The notes under the pieces: model-generated
Database searches by the model: none
Told to the model about the DNA's origin: nothing
The model's input: the letters and a program-made list of their open reading frames with translations, nothing else
Part shown: positions 27,108 through 33,365 of the stretch, in pieces
How the letters are laid out: every line of letters starts with the position of its first letter
Numbering within the stretch: position 1 is the first letter of the stretch
Source: Deltaproteobacteria bacterium
Lineage (GTDB): Bacteria; Desulfobacterota; Dissulfuribacteria; Dissulfuribacterales; UBA3076
DNA length: 33,680 nt
Direction of reading: 5' to 3'
NCBI GenBank assembly: GCA_003194485.1
Contig: PQXD01000003.1
Span: forward strand, 144,924 to 178,603
Made by a program: the position numbers and the translations under genes

Positions 27108-29921
27108 TCAACCTTTCCCGGTACCCCACCTCATATAGTCTCTCATAAGATAGGCAGACTCTTCCCGTTCGATCTTGACTGTGCATATCTTGAATTCAGG
27201 TGTCTTGGCAATGGGGTCCAGGGCACTGCTGGTCAGGATGTTTGTCCTGGTCTCAGAAAAATTGAACGTCATGCAAACAACACCCGGAGAAACGATTTCG
27301 GTTATCTTTGTCCTGGCCTTTATGCTCCCTCTCCTCGAGGTCACTCTTATGACTTCGCCGTCCTGGATCTCCAGGGAGGCGGCATCAGCCGGGTGTATCT
27401 CCATTCGCTCCTCGCCACGCAGGTCATCAAAACCTTCGGCCTTACGCGTCATAACGGCATGATAATGGAAGGCGCTCCGTCTGGTGATAAGGATAAATGG
27501 ATACTCGTGGCTGGGAGTCTCTGCCGGAGGCCGGTACGAAATGGGTGCGAATCTTGCGCGCCCGTTTGGTGTGTTGAAGCGCTCGCTGTAAAGATACGGC
27601 GTTCCCGGATGTTCGTGATCCGGGCAGGGCCATTGAAGCCCGGACTTCTCAATACGTTCGTACGTAATGCCCCCGTAACTCGGGGTCAGGCTGCGCATCT
27701 CCTCAAAGATCTCCTGGGGGCTGCTGAAATCAAAACCTTTTGCCCCCATGCTTTTTGCAATATCGCATATGATCATCCAGTCGGGACGTGAATTGCCTTT
27801 GGGCTCTATTGCCTTGCGGACCCTTTGTACCCGCCTCTCGGTGTTGGTAAAGGTCCCGTCTTTCTCGGCAAAGCTGGCTGCCGGAAGCACAACGTCTGCC
27901 AGACGCGCCGTCTCTGTAAGGAAGATATCCTGCACCACGAACAGTTCCAGATGTGATATGGCCTTTTCTATGAAATGGGTGTCCGCGTCCGTGACTACCG
28001 GATCTTCACCAACCAGATAGAGGGCCTTGATCCTGCCCTCACGGGCCGCATCAAACATCTCGGTCAATGTGAGTCCGGGTGATGGACTGAGCTTGCAACT
28101 CCACGCCTTTTCAAACTTCCTCCGCACCTTTTCATCATCCACCTTTTGATAACCAGGGTATACATTTGGAAGCGCTCCCATATCACAGGCGCCCTGGACG
28201 TTATTCTGCCCCCTTAAGGGATTTACGCCGGTCGAGGGCCTTCCGATGCTGCCCGTAAGCAGCGCCAGGTTGGCCAGGGCCCGCACATTGTCCGTCCCGT
28301 GCGAGTGCTCGGTGATGCCAAGGGTATACAGGATGGTAGCGGGTGAGGTAGAGGCGAACATCCTGGCGGCCTCGACCATGTCCTGTGCAGGAACACCAGT
28401 AATTTCCTCAACAGTTGCCAGGTCATTCTCCATGACCGAGGCCTCAAAGGCCTCATAGCCATCGCATCGTTCCTCGATAAATGAGGTATCCAGGAGGTCT
28501 TCCTCGATAATGACCCTCATCATCCCATTCAGGAGCGCTATATCGGTTCCTGGCCGGAGCCTGAGCCAGATATCGGCCATGCGGCAGAGAGGTATGCGCC
28601 TGGGATCCGCCACGATGAGCTTTGCACCTTTTTGCACGGCCCTGGTGACCTGCCTGCCTATAATCGGATGATTTGCCGTCGTATTGGTGCCGATGGCAAA
28701 GATGCAGGCCGCATCGCTGATCTCGCCTATGGAGTTCGTCATGGCACCGCTGCCGAAGCTGGCGGCCAGACCGGCCACCGTGGGCGCGTGTCAGAGACGG
28801 GCACAGTGGTCGATATTATTGGTCTTCAATACCGCCCTGGTAAACTTCTGGAAGAGGTAGTTCTCTTCATTTGTGCATCTGGCCGAGGAGATGGCCGCAA
28901 TCTCATTTCCTTTGTAATGGGCTAGGCTGCTTGCCACATATTTGATCGCCTGGTCCCAGGTGATTTCCACAAACTTGCCTTCTCTCTTCACAAGGGGCAA
29001 TGTAACCCGTCTGCCTTCTTCTGTTACTTCAACTACAGAGGACGGCCGTGCATATTCATCGTATGCACGCATGAGCGGAAGAGACAGCCTGTCCGGACTA
29101 TCAACAAACTTATAGCCAAAGCGCCCGCGGACACAGAGGTTGCCCTTATTGACAGGGCTTTCGCAATCGCCCCTGGCCCTTACGATGGTGTTTCCGCGCA
29201 CACCCAGGTAAAGCCCGCACCCCACACCACAGTATGAACAGGTGGTTTTTACTTCACGGGTTGGATATTCGGCCTTTTTGGGTATCAGGGCACCTACAGG
29301 GCAACGCTCGACACATTCCCCGCAGGACACGCAGACGGAGTCTTTTATAGGTTTGTTGGCAAATGTGCTGACTCTGAGGTCGTAACTCCGGTATGCCATG
29401 TCGATTGCATCAATACCTGCGATCTCGTGACAGGTTCGGACACATATGGTGCACTGCACGCACTTGTTTGGATTGAAATCGAAAAACGGGTTGCTGGTGT
29501 CAATAGGAAGGTCCTTGGCCGTATGCTCTAAGCGATTGAACCGGTGTTCATTGAAACCTATACGGTTCACAAGTTCCTGAAGGCGGCACTGCCCGCTCTT
29601 TGGGCAGAGAAGGCAGTTGAAGTCATGGTCACTCAGGATGAGCTCAAGGATCACCCGGCGCAATCGTTCGATTTCAGGATCGTCCGTAACAACCACCATC
29701 CCTTCTTCCACGGGGGTCCGGCAGGCCGGTTCAAGTCTCCTCCGGTTTTCGATCCTGACCAGGCACAGGCGGCACACGCTCTGGGGCGAGACATCAGGGC
29801 AATGGCACAGGGTGGGGATATAGATACCTGCATCCCGGGCCGCTGTGAGGATCGTGGCACCCTCATCGGCCCTTACCGTAATTCCGTTTATGTTCAAAGA
29901 AACGCTACTCACTCTTATCAC
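27108..29921 (-). CDS. fdhA: NAD-linked formate dehydrogenase alpha subunit, selenoprotein (UGA = Sec)
   Basis: FdhA oxidises formate, or reduces CO2, at a Mo/W-bis-MGD centre. One frame of 938 codons is broken only by TGA at 28793-28791. The context [24 protein letters not shown] is the conserved active-site segment where the family has Cys or Sec, so TGA is selenocysteine 377. Domains in order are an N-terminal 2Fe-2S (CRLCLVR), the NuoG-type His-Cys cluster (DHDFNCLLCPKSGQCRLQ), two ferredoxin clusters (CVQCTICVRTC, CVSCGECVERCPVGAL), the catalytic 4Fe-4S (CSYCGVGCGL) and the molybdopterin domains. Start GTG 29921 overlaps the nuoF-like end; GTG 29912 is also possible. A SECIS-like hairpin follows the UGA. 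Confidence 0.95.
28761..28779 (-). promoter_or_regulatory. Bacterial SECIS hairpin of fdhA
   Basis: Eleven bases after the UGA the transcript can form a 7-bp stem, GGUGGCC/GGCCGCC, with a GGUCU loop. The spacing and the loop match the E. coli fdhF SECIS, whose loop is also GGUCU (family knowledge). SelB would bind it to insert selenocysteine. Confidence 0.8.
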
Positions 29922-31839
29922 CTGAGCCTTCCATCAGACCGGTAACACATTCCACTGCATTGAACCGCTTGGGGCAGACCGCCATGCAGGTCCCGCATTT
30001 GATGCACTTACTCTGATCAATCTCGTGGACCTGCCATTTCGCACCTATAATGGCACCAACCGGACAGGCCGTCAGGCATTTCATACAGGCCTTACACCTG
30101 TAGTCCTTGATACGGTAGAAAATGAGGGACCTGCACACAAGGGCCCGGCATCGTCCTTCATGGATGTGCTCTTCATACTCTTTACGAAAATAGCGTATGG
30201 TAGATACTACGGGATTTGGGACTGTCATTCCAAGGCCGCATATGGAGGCCTGCTTGACGGCATCGGACAGTTCGAGCAGGATCTCGATATCTCCGGGCTT
30301 TCCGTCTCCTCTTGTGATATCCTGCAAGATCTTGAACATCTGCTTTGTGCCGAGCCTGCACGGAGCACACTGCCCGCAGGACTCATTCTGTGCAAAATCG
30401 AGGAAGTACCGGGCGATATTTACAATACACGTGCTCTCATCCATGACGAGCATCCCTCCGGAGCCCATGATCGACCCTACCTTGGCCAGCGATTCATACC
30501 CCACTGGCAGATCCAGGAGTTCTTCAGGGATACATCCGCCTGATGGCCCGCCGGTCTGTACCGCCTTGAAACGCTTCCCTTCCGGGATACCTCCGCCTAT
30601 GTCAAAGATGATCTCGCGAAGCGTCGTGCCCATCTCCACCTCGACAAGGCCCACATTCCGGACCTTTCCCACGAGCGAGAATATCTTCGTCCCCGTATCG
30701 GTGGCAGTACCTATTTTTGAATACCACTCGCCCCCGTTCAGGGCAATCCTGGAGACGTTTACCAGTGTCTCCACGTTATTAATAACAGTAGGTTTGCCCC
30801 ACAGTCCCTGTATGGCAGGGAAGGGGGGTTTTGGTCTTGGCCGGCCGCTTCTTCCTTCGATTGAGGCTATAAGCGCGGTCTCCTCTCCACATACGAATGC
30901 ACCCGCGCCCTTTACGATCTTGATCTCAAAATCAAACCCGCGCCCCATGATATTGCGCCCGAGGAGCCCCAGATCAGCGGCCTGGGCAATGGCTGTGGAC
31001 AGATGATGTACGGCCAGCGGATATTCAGCGCGCACGTATATGATCCCCTGAGAGGCCCCGACGGCATAACCGGCGATCATCATCCCTTCCAATATGCTGT
31101 AGGGATCGCCTTCCATGACGCTCCGGTCCATAAAGGCGCCCGGATCACCCTCATCGCCGTTACAAATGATGTATTTCTCTTTACCAGGGGCATTGCGTGC
31201 CGTTTCCCACTTGATGCCGGTCGGAAACCCGGCACCTCCTCTTCCGCGCAGACCGCTGAGCTTGATCTCTTCAATGACTCCTTCAGGGGTCATTTGAGAC
31301 AGGACTTTGGCAAGGGCCCGAAAGCCGTCGACCTTTATATAATCTTCAATGATAGTAGGATCTATGATACCACAGTTTTTCAGTACAATCCTTTTCTGCT
31401 TCTTGTAAAAGGGGATGTCATTCTCATAAAGGCACTTCTGGCCGGTGACAGGGTCTTCATACAGGAGCCTTTCAACTACCCGGTCTTCAAGCAATGTCTC
31501 GGAAATGATTTCCGGCACGTCCTCTTCTGTTACGCTATTGTAGAAGATATTTTGCGGACCTATAATCACATTTGGCCCTCTCTCGCAAAACCCATGACAA
31601 CCCGTCTTCTTGACCGTTATCTCATCTTCAAGCTCCTGCTCCTTGATTTCTCTGGCAAAGGCCTCTCTGACATGCTCGCTTCCGGAAGACATGCAACCGC
31701 TTCCACAGCAGACGCTGACAAGTTTGCCTGTTGTCTGCTCACCTGCAATGAGGGTCTCCCTCAGGAGTCTCAACGATTCCACGGTACCTATTCTGTAGCC
31801 TTCCATTGATGGTATCGAGATCGATTTTTCCATATCCAT
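29905..31839 (-). CDS. nuoF: NuoF-like diaphorase subunit of formate dehydrogenase (HymB/FdhB type)
   Basis: A 644-aa FMN- and NAD(P)-binding subunit that links FdhA to the nicotinamide pool. A thioredoxin-like 2Fe-2S domain comes first (SVCCGSGCMSSGSEHV, KKTGCHGFCERGPNVII). The FMN/NADH-binding core is GLRGRGGAGFPTGIKWETAR, CNGDEGDPGAFMDRSVMEGD and GAGAFVCGEETALIASIEG. The 4Fe-4S motif is ESCGQCAPCRLGTKQM. A C-terminal ferredoxin domain has two clusters (CKACMKCLTACPVGAI, CIKCGTCMAVCPKRF). This order is usual for HymB/HydB and NAD-dependent FdhB proteins rather than complex I NuoF. It overlaps fdhA by 17 bases, so the pair is translationally coupled. Confidence 0.95.
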   Translation of the reverse strand: MDMEKSISIPSMEGYRIGTVESLRLLRETLIAGEQTTGKLVSVCCGSGCMSSGSEHVREAFAREIKEQELEDEITVKKTGCHGFCERGPNVIIGPQNIFYNSVTEEDVPEIISETLLEDRVVERLLYEDPVTGQKCLYENDIPFYKKQKRIVLKNCGIIDPTIIEDYIKVDGFRALAKVLSQMTPEGVIEEIKLSGLRGRGGAGFPTGIKWETARNAPGKEKYIICNGDEGDPGAFMDRSVMEGDPYSILEGMMIAGYAVGASQGIIYVRAEYPLAVHHLSTAIAQAADLGLLGRNIMGRGFDFEIKIVKGAGAFVCGEETALIASIEGRSGRPRPKPPFPAIQGLWGKPTVINNVETLVNVSRIALNGGEWYSKIGTATDTGTKIFSLVGKVRNVGLVEVEMGTTLREIIFDIGGGIPEGKRFKAVQTGGPSGGCIPEELLDLPVGYESLAKVGSIMGSGGMLVMDESTCIVNIARYFLDFAQNESCGQCAPCRLGTKQMFKILQDITRGDGKPGDIEILLELSDAVKQASICGLGMTVPNPVVSTIRYFRKEYEEHIHEGRCRALVCRSLIFYRIKDYRCKACMKCLTACPVGAIIGAKWQVHEIDQSKCIKCGTCMAVCPKRFNAVECVTGLMEGSGDKSE

Positions 31840-31894: not shown

Positions 31895-32350
31895 TCAATC
31901 GAGGTCCTCTGTCAGTAATTTCTTGATCTTTCTTACTGTCATTCTCGAGTGGACTTCGTCATCTACAAGGACAACCGGAGCCAGGGCACATGACCCGAGG
32001 CAGGCAACCCGTTGCAGGCTGTATTTGTAATCCGGGGTCGTTTGACCTGTCTTGATCCCAAGGCAGTTTTCCGCCGTTTCCAGAATGCTACGCGCACCCA
32101 GTACATGACAGGCAGTCCCCTGGCACACGGAGACGAGATGATCACCCCGTCGCGTCAAATAGAAACGGTCATAGAACGTTGCCACGCTGAATACCTGGCT
32201 CGGCGGCAATTTCAAGAAATCCGCGACTGAAGACAGGGCGGCCTCGGGCAGATATCCAAACTCCTCCTGGACCCTCTGCAGGATGGAGATCAATCCCCCC
32301 TTTTCTCCTTCAAAAACTGCAAGTATCTTGTTTAGTCTTTCCGTATCCAC
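31895..32350 (-). CDS. nuoE: NuoE-like 2Fe-2S subunit of formate dehydrogenase (HymA type)
   Basis: A thioredoxin-like [2Fe-2S] subunit. The cluster cysteines are CQGTACHVLGA and CLGSCALAPVVLVDDEVH, spaced as in NuoE. The upstream helical part (LISILQRVQEEFGYLPEAAL, VFSVATFYDRFYL) is also standard. The frame is open further upstream into the fbp-like gene, but family length and the GTG at 32350, four bases after that gene's stop, favour 151 aa. The ribosome-binding site is weak (AAGCGTTAAG), suggesting coupling to the upstream gene. It should dock on the NuoF-like subunit and pass electrons between flavin and FdhA clusters. Confidence 0.9.
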   Translation of the reverse strand: MDTERLNKILAVFEGEKGGLISILQRVQEEFGYLPEAALSSVADFLKLPPSQVFSVATFYDRFYLTRRGDHLVSVCQGTACHVLGARSILETAENCLGIKTGQTTPDYKYSLQRVACLGSCALAPVVLVDDEVHSRMTVRKIKKLLTEDLD

Positions 32351-32354
32351 AGTC

Positions 32355-33365
32355 TTAACGCTTACCCTGAATGATGCCTTCGGCCATCCGCACATCTTCC
32401 GCGCTGCCGATGAACACCGGCACCCTTTGATGAAGATGTTGGGGCTGGATATCAAGGATACGTTCGAACCCGGTGCTTGCATATCCTCCGGCCTGTTCTA
32501 CTACAAAGGCCAGGGGATTTACCTCGCAAGTGAGCATCAACTTTCCATGGGGCTTTGACGGGTCCTTTGAATTCGCCGGATACATGTATATCCCGCCTTT
32601 CAGAAGATTCCGGTGAAAATCAGTGACAAAAGAACCTGTATATCGCGCTGTATAGGGACGGCCTGTCTTTATGTCCGGTGTCTTGAAATACTCGATCACG
32701 TCCTGTACTCTTTCATCCCAGAAATAATAATTTCCTTCATTGACGCTATAGGTCTTTCCCTTATCGGGTATACGAATGTTCTCGTGGGAGAGAAGAAACT
32801 CCCCGATACTCGGTTGCAGTGTAAAGCCATGCACCCCGTCTCCTGTTGTATAAACCATTATCTTGCTCGACCCGTAAATAAAATATCCCGCTGCCACCTG
32901 TTTATAACCGGGCTTTAAGGCCTCTGCCATAAGGCCGAATTCTCTGGGCCCCTCTTTTTTGATGATTGAAAAGACCGTACCGATCGTGACGGGTACATCA
33001 ATATTGGTAACACCCCCCAGGGGATCAAAGATCAATATATAGTTACCCCTTGGATACTCCTCTGGGATAGGTATCAAATCGGTATTCATCTTGGAGACCA
33101 TACAAGCCAGATAGCCCACGTGACTGAGGCGATTCATAATTGTAAAATTGGCATATTCGCGCAATTTTTGTACGAACGCTTCGCCAACGCTTTCTGACTC
33201 CACAGTATCCAGGGCATCAGACAAATTTGCCTTGTCTACCTTTTTGGCGATGATCTTGGCTGCTACTGTCATCTCAGATAATATCGATGTAAAGGCGCCC
33301 GTCGCCTCCGGCCGCTCTTTTTGTCTTGATAAGATAAACTCAGTAACAGTTATCCCTTTAGCCAT
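32355..33365 (-). CDS. fbp: Class I fructose-1,6-bisphosphatase homologue with altered metal site
   Basis: A 336-aa protein with full-length similarity to class I FBPase: KQVAAGYFIYGSSKIMVYTT, KGKTYSVNEGNYYFW, PYTARYTGSFVTDFHRNLLK, GGIYMYPAN and CEVNPLAFVVEQAGGYAS. Sugar-phosphate residues are therefore kept. The metal-site segments differ from the classical enzyme: the usual SEE is SKMN (ACMVSKMNTD), and DPLDGSSNID is DPLGGVTNID, so two glutamates and the central aspartate are missing. It may be inactive, use a different mechanism or have a regulatory role. The ATG at 33365 has AGAGGTGG upstream. It is first in a run with the formate dehydrogenase genes (nuoE-like starts 4 bases after its stop). 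Confidence 0.88.
   Translation of the reverse strand: MAKGITVTEFILSRQKERPEATGAFTSILSEMTVAAKIIAKKVDKANLSDALDTVESESVGEAFVQKLREYANFTIMNRLSHVGYLACMVSKMNTDLIPIPEEYPRGNYILIFDPLGGVTNIDVPVTIGTVFSIIKKEGPREFGLMAEALKPGYKQVAAGYFIYGSSKIMVYTTGDGVHGFTLQPSIGEFLLSHENIRIPDKGKTYSVNEGNYYFWDERVQDVIEYFKTPDIKTGRPYTARYTGSFVTDFHRNLLKGGIYMYPANSKDPSKPHGKLMLTCEVNPLAFVVEQAGGYASTGFERILDIQPQHLHQRVPVFIGSAEDVRMAEGIIQGKR

Follow-up and report, generated by a model that had tools for sequence, protein, structure and literature searches.

A class I fructose-1,6-bisphosphatase homologue without its catalytic metal-site residues is linked to a formate dehydrogenase cassette in seep-type sulfate reducers

What might a fructose-1,6-bisphosphatase (FBPase) homologue that has lost catalytic residues do beside formate dehydrogenase (FDH) genes? 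The question was raised by one locus in a stretch of 33,680 nucleotides, referred to below as the window. The open reading frame, designated psFBP (pseudo-FBPase), occupies positions 32355 to 33365 of the minus strand and encodes 336 amino acids; it starts at an ATG with AGAGGTGG ahead and is free of stops. Its homology to class I FBPase, described beforehand as extending throughout the protein, was borne out by full-length matches above curated cut-offs, covering both domains: 414.5 bits for NCBIfam NF006778 (cut-off 368), and 161.4 and 147.7 bits for Pfam PF00316 and PF18913 (cut-offs 34.8 and 27, respectively). The top sequence match in the PDB was E. coli FBPase (2gq1, 1.9e-86). An AlphaFold model obtained with 43 sequences reached a pLDDT of 82.5 and a pTM of 0.88, with low confidence at the altered loop of residues 119 to 125 (with 20 sequences the pLDDT was only 46), and Foldseek aligned it to solved FBPases with TM scores of 0.84 to 0.88, as the sequence predicts. 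psFBP is homologous over its full length to the class I enzymes (EC 3.1.3.11), among them E. coli Fbp (2gq1), the porcine enzyme and human FBP1, and shares their predicted fold. Identity was 42 to 47% to E. coli-type FBPase and 55 to 63% to the closest intact bacterial enzymes.

The divergence from these enzymes was found at the residues of metal binding and phosphoryl transfer (D74, E97, E98, D121, S123 and R276). Residues were numbered as in mammalian FBPase, on an alignment with the rabbit and E. coli proteins. The two altered motifs read as in the preliminary description. Thus, SKMN stands for SEEN (positions 33084 to 33095, minus strand), replacing Glu97 with Lys and Glu98 with Met, and DPLGGVTNID stands for DPLDGSSNID (32997 to 33026, minus strand), replacing Asp121 with Gly, Ser123 with Val and Ser124 with Thr (PMC3785478 for Glu97 and Asp121). 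Besides the change of S123 to V, three losses went beyond that description: codon 69 (33159 to 33161, minus strand) encodes R where Asp74 stands in the mammalian enzyme, codon 277 (32535 to 32537, minus strand) encodes M where Arg276 stands, and N64 is replaced by S. In human muscle FBPase, the M1 ligands are Asp118, Asp121 and Glu280, M2 is bound by Glu97, Asp118 and the Leu120 carbonyl and M3 by Glu97, and Arg276 is able to form a salt bridge with metaphosphate (PMC3785478). With Asp118 and Glu280 kept and Glu97 and Asp121 lost, psFBP therefore has two of the four carboxylate ligands of that structure, and a lysine replaces Glu97, the glutamate common to the metals. Glu98 and Asp74, further metal-site residues of class I FBPase, are gone as well, so that only Asp118 and Glu280 are retained of the whole set. 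None of the changed residues occurred in the 24 catalytic-type FBPases compared. The replacement of D74, E97, E98, D121 and R276 strongly supports the earlier claim that metal-dependent catalytic residues have been lost, and, judged from these residues, ordinary FBPase catalysis has very probably been lost with them. With D118 and E280 still in place, the protein may bind metal weakly or in an altered way.

The same substitutions recurred in 24 independently assembled relatives (L033 to L056); with psFBP of the window these make a set of 25 distinct variants, all of them full-length. The concordance of the 25 sequences rules out sequencing error or chance. Sixty-five columns were invariant in the 24 catalytic-type FBPases, and 46 of them were unchanged in all 25 variants; eight were lost (N64, D74, E97, E98, D121, S123, S124 and R276), every one of which belongs to the catalytic centre or adjoins it. 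Among the new residues, Lys97, Gly121 and Met276 were invariant (25 of 25), and together with Thr124 they were fixed in 24 to 25 of the 25 variants, while the positions of Asp74 (R, H, V, T, L or A) and Glu98 (M, K, T, Q, N or R) were free to drift. The residues of the substrate 6-phosphate pocket of class I FBPase (Asn212, Arg243, Tyr244, Tyr264 and Lys274) were intact in the variants aligned, N212, R243 and K274 being found in 25 of 25; D118, E280 and N125 were also retained. At the AMP site, Thr27, Gly28, Thr31 and Tyr113 were kept and Lys112 and Arg140 were changed, two positions that are not conserved even in intact FBPases of related bacteria, an ambiguous pattern with regard to the AMP sensing suggested beforehand.

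The 25 variants formed a single clade (support 100/100) on a stem of 0.45 changes per site, in agreement with a single origin of the pseudoenzyme. This clade joined the intact FBPases of Desulfobacteria with moderate support (92/81), and the intact FBPase of the window's genome grouped with its own order; psFBP probably originated by duplication near the intact Desulfobacteria FBPases. Median dN/dS values were 0.094 and 0.079 in two groups of variants versus 0.081 in intact FBPases, and this common level (0.08 to 0.09) marks psFBP as a maintained protein. The motif pattern was rare: one of 395 genomes drawn from the phylum had it, the window's own, as did five of 194 in the order of G060. Each of these carriers belongs to the clade, and a widespread variant was thus rejected.

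The hosts are seep-type sulfate reducers, namely Seep-SRB2 and an order of Desulfobacteria. The nearest MAG (L033) is labelled SeepSRB2, and further carrier MAGs bear the label Desulfobacterales or Desulfobacteria, for example C00003060 and S7086C20. Seep-SRB2 belongs to the Dissulfuribacterales, is a partner of methane-oxidising archaea and fixes carbon through the Wood-Ljungdahl pathway (PMC10553843). The order C00003060 also holds Seep-SRB1c, which has not yet been found with ANME (PMC10553843), and for this reason psFBP is not claimed as a marker of syntrophy. Two psFBP copies (L047 and L048; 74 and 73% identity to that of the window) were found in a single MAG, G065, which lacks an intact class I FBPase and may mix strains.

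Downstream of psFBP on the minus strand, the window encodes a nuoE-like 2Fe-2S FDH subunit (31895 to 32350; PF01257; likely GTG start, with the longest open reading frame beginning at 32482), a nuoF-like FMN/NAD subunit with C-terminal ferredoxin domains (29905 to 31839; PF01512, PF10589 and Fer4) and fdhA, a molybdopterin formate dehydrogenase with a NuoG-like N terminus (27108 to 29921). The latter contains an in-frame TGA at 28791 to 28793, in the context CARL-U-HAPTVAGL, which was read as selenocysteine and at which ORF callers cut the gene into an N and a C ORF, fdhN and fdhC (28791 to 29921 and 27108 to 28778); TGA was found in 14 of the 15 loci read, and L044 has TGC (Cys). These genes share the domain make-up of the NuoE-NuoF-FdhA selenocysteine NAD-type FDH, Sec codon included. 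The order psFBP-nuoE-nuoF-fdhA held in every locus whose contig continues downstream, so that nuoE, nuoF and fdhA accompanied the variant wherever they could be read, and this conserved order gives strong support to the proposed linkage with an NAD-type formate dehydrogenase. Among the Desulfobacteria, 12 of 15 loci have nuoE beginning 8 to 11 nt past the stop of psFBP. The distance in the window is about 4 nt if the GTG at 32350 is the start, and translation together with the formate dehydrogenase, as tight coupling, is plausible from these spacings.

The position of psFBP at the head of an operon, as first described, could not be read in the window because the contig ends 315 bp upstream of the gene, a segment in which a search for an acsE remnant was negative. 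The relatives correct this placement: in most of them psFBP lies within a more extensive Wood-Ljungdahl cluster, preceded by metF/acsD-acsB-acsC-acsE, with the methylene-THF reductase/AcsD gene first, and several Desulfobacteria carry two heterodisulfide-reductase-like genes between the acs cluster and psFBP. In the nearest relative, a 30-codon remnant of the acsE 3' end lies upstream of psFBP (L033:3205-3294); the acsE-psFBP junction seems to be broken there, and no full-length acsE of that type was seen in its genome (G007). In the window's own genome (G000), acsB-acsC-acsE lies on another contig (C7, L120) and is followed by unrelated genes; this acs cluster is only 85 to 88% identical to the same-genus cluster, unlike those of other members of the genus. 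In G007, and in G000 to the extent that its locus could be seen, the cassette is not beside a full-length acsE, and the link of psFBP is thus firm to the FDH genes and weaker to the acs genes.

The occurrence of the cassette in two lineages is most simply explained by exchange of a psFBP-containing unit. Mean identities between the Seep-SRB2-type and Desulfobacteria sequences were 72.5% for psFBP, 71.4% for nuoE, 69.9% for nuoF, 70.7% for fdhN and 68.0% for fdhC, whereas those of the acs genes were 45.2% (acsE), 57.7% (acsC) and 65.0% (acsB). The difference between the five ORFs (68 to 73%) and the acs genes (45 to 65%) indicates that psFBP moved between lineages with the FDH cassette, and the FBPase tree suggests that it may have passed from Desulfobacteria to Seep-SRB2. 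The identity matrices of psFBP and the FDH subunits were also correlated (rho 0.75 to 0.92); since the acs genes correlate too, the level of identity is the stronger point. NuoF and FdhN of the cassette had at most about 60% identity to proteins outside the clade in searches with these two proteins. Within the window's order, the acsE gene of relatives without psFBP is followed directly by an NfnB/GltD-like gene and another FDH, and in the NuoEF-FDH operons of other families regulators or unrelated genes were found upstream; several of these loci end too early, and wherever the upstream region of related operons in the phylum could be read it contained no FBPase gene.

The occurrence of a second, intact fbp in the same genome was examined as proposed beforehand. 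An intact class I copy was present in 15 of 24 genomes and not found in the rest, several of which are incomplete MAGs or carry a class V FBPase. The window's own genome (97.4% complete) contains a second class I FBPase with intact SEEN and DPLDGSSNID, and two FBPase copies were found in seven of the ten variant-carrying genomes of its family, itself included. Among the Desulfobacteria with psFBP, eight of 14 genomes also encode an intact class I FBPase; G065, a ninth, carries a pair of variants instead. In G068, G070 and G071 a class V FBPase (PF01950) was found and an intact class I copy was not; none of 20 genomes tested yielded GlpX. A few MAGs yielded neither a class I nor a class V FBPase, a weak kind of evidence because several MAGs are incomplete. 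The original reaction is thereby covered by another FBPase, of class I or class V, in most psFBP genomes. Where their surroundings were readable, the intact fbp copies showed no linkage to FDH or acs genes, unlike psFBP with its place in the FDH cassette. Of 76 genomes in the order of G060, only two yielded a class I FBPase, and these two carry psFBP; the other members of that order must use another FBPase class.

Under the explanation that we favour, a copy of a class I FBPase would have lost its catalytic metal cluster and become fixed for a new role. It would no longer hydrolyse fructose-1,6-bisphosphate and would keep its sugar-6-phosphate pocket, acting as a non-catalytic partner of the FDH, either a bound subunit in physical contact with the enzyme or a regulator. 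The psFBP-nuoE-nuoF-fdhA cassette would encode an NAD-type selenocysteine FDH supplying the Wood-Ljungdahl pathway, and its sharing would have made it common to the Seep-SRB2-type and Desulfobacteria lineages; through psFBP, the reduction of CO2 to formate would be tuned to gluconeogenic sugar phosphate. The parts of this proposal differ in strength. A functional tie between psFBP and formate dehydrogenase is well supported by linkage and co-transfer, and we regard it as likely. Sensing of a sugar phosphate through the kept 6-phosphate pocket is plausible, if somewhat short of probable. The explanation as a whole, a pseudoenzyme without its metal cluster that belongs to the cassette and partners an FDH tuned by sugar phosphate, may be right or wrong with about equal chance. 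Its most specific form, in which the dead FBPase would be an integral sugar-phosphate-sensing FDH subunit coupling the gluconeogenic pool to Wood-Ljungdahl CO2 reduction, in a cassette exchanged among seep lineages, is tentative and rather doubtful.

Other readings were weighed against the same data. psFBP could still be a catalyst, though of a different reaction, with the invariant lysine in place of the metal cluster and another phosphorylated or C1-related substrate that serves the Wood-Ljungdahl and FDH context. The fixation of Lys97, Gly121, Thr124 and Met276 resembles that of a new functional site, and the three invariant residues could equally mark a catalytic one; strong purifying selection acts on a protein that retains D118, E280 and the sugar-phosphate pocket. 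However, the free variation at Asp74 and Glu98 indicates that these two positions now have no chemical role, and we know of no metal-free phosphatase of the FBPase fold. We consider this reading unlikely. It is also conceivable that psFBP regulates the intact FBPase, in mixed tetramers, by donating Arg243 to the active site of its neighbour, or as a dominant-negative brake on gluconeogenesis. The retention of R243 and the 6-phosphate residues, the presence of an intact class I FBPase together with psFBP in 15 of 24 genomes and the restriction of class I FBPase to psFBP genomes in the order of G060 (2 of 76) agree with such a role, which is weakened by the finding that the cassette is linked with FDH rather than with the intact fbp and lies in genomes with different FBPase lineages or none: the intact FBPase of Seep-SRB2 is of a different lineage, and G068, G070 and G071 offer the class V enzyme in place of a detectable class I partner. 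This role is, in our judgement, distinctly unlikely.

Residual FBPase activity, low and with the metal held by D118, E280 and other groups, would fit a score that exceeds the threshold of NF006778, the FBPase equivalog, and the retention of D118, E280, N125 and the substrate pocket, but Glu97, Asp121, Asp74, Glu98 and Arg276 are lost in 25 of 25 variants, Lys97 brings a positive charge to the metal position, and most genomes keep another FBPase; this makes it highly improbable. The loss of catalytic residues might also point to a pseudogene in decay that travels with the FDH genes. This reading is refuted by the selection and conservation tests, with 25 of 25 concordant sequences full-length, dN/dS at 0.08 to 0.09, a single old origin, invariant new residues and preserved gene junctions, and its chance is negligible.

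The favoured reading, a non-catalytic FDH partner, has parallels among metabolic pseudoenzymes, inactive paralogues that serve as regulators or partners; psFBP has likewise lost catalytic residues while its fold and ligand pocket are retained and purifying selection persists, a pattern suggestive of an enzyme taken out of service and given a regulatory or structural role in CO2 fixation. No pseudoenzyme of the FBPase family was described in the literature searched, which omits most subscription papers; in PMC10553843, a genomics paper on Seep-SRB that deals with both the Wood-Ljungdahl pathway and formate dehydrogenases, no bisphosphatase is named in the main text. If the reading is correct, a CO2-fixation operon would have captured a pseudoenzyme derived from FBPase, which ranks among the most thoroughly studied regulatory enzymes of gluconeogenesis, and the level of sugar phosphate would act directly on formate and CO2 reduction in energy-limited autotrophs, in lineages that include Seep-SRB2, the partner of methane-oxidising archaea. 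Since psFBP exceeds the NF006778 cut-off and is annotated as an ordinary FBPase, metabolic reconstructions would count a probably non-working enzyme.

In one genome of the Seep-SRB2 type, a single 1003-amino-acid ORF (L035:336-3347) was found to fuse MTHFR, TPR repeats and CdhD/AcsD. Similar ORFs of about 1000 amino acids were also present in L037, L038 and L041.
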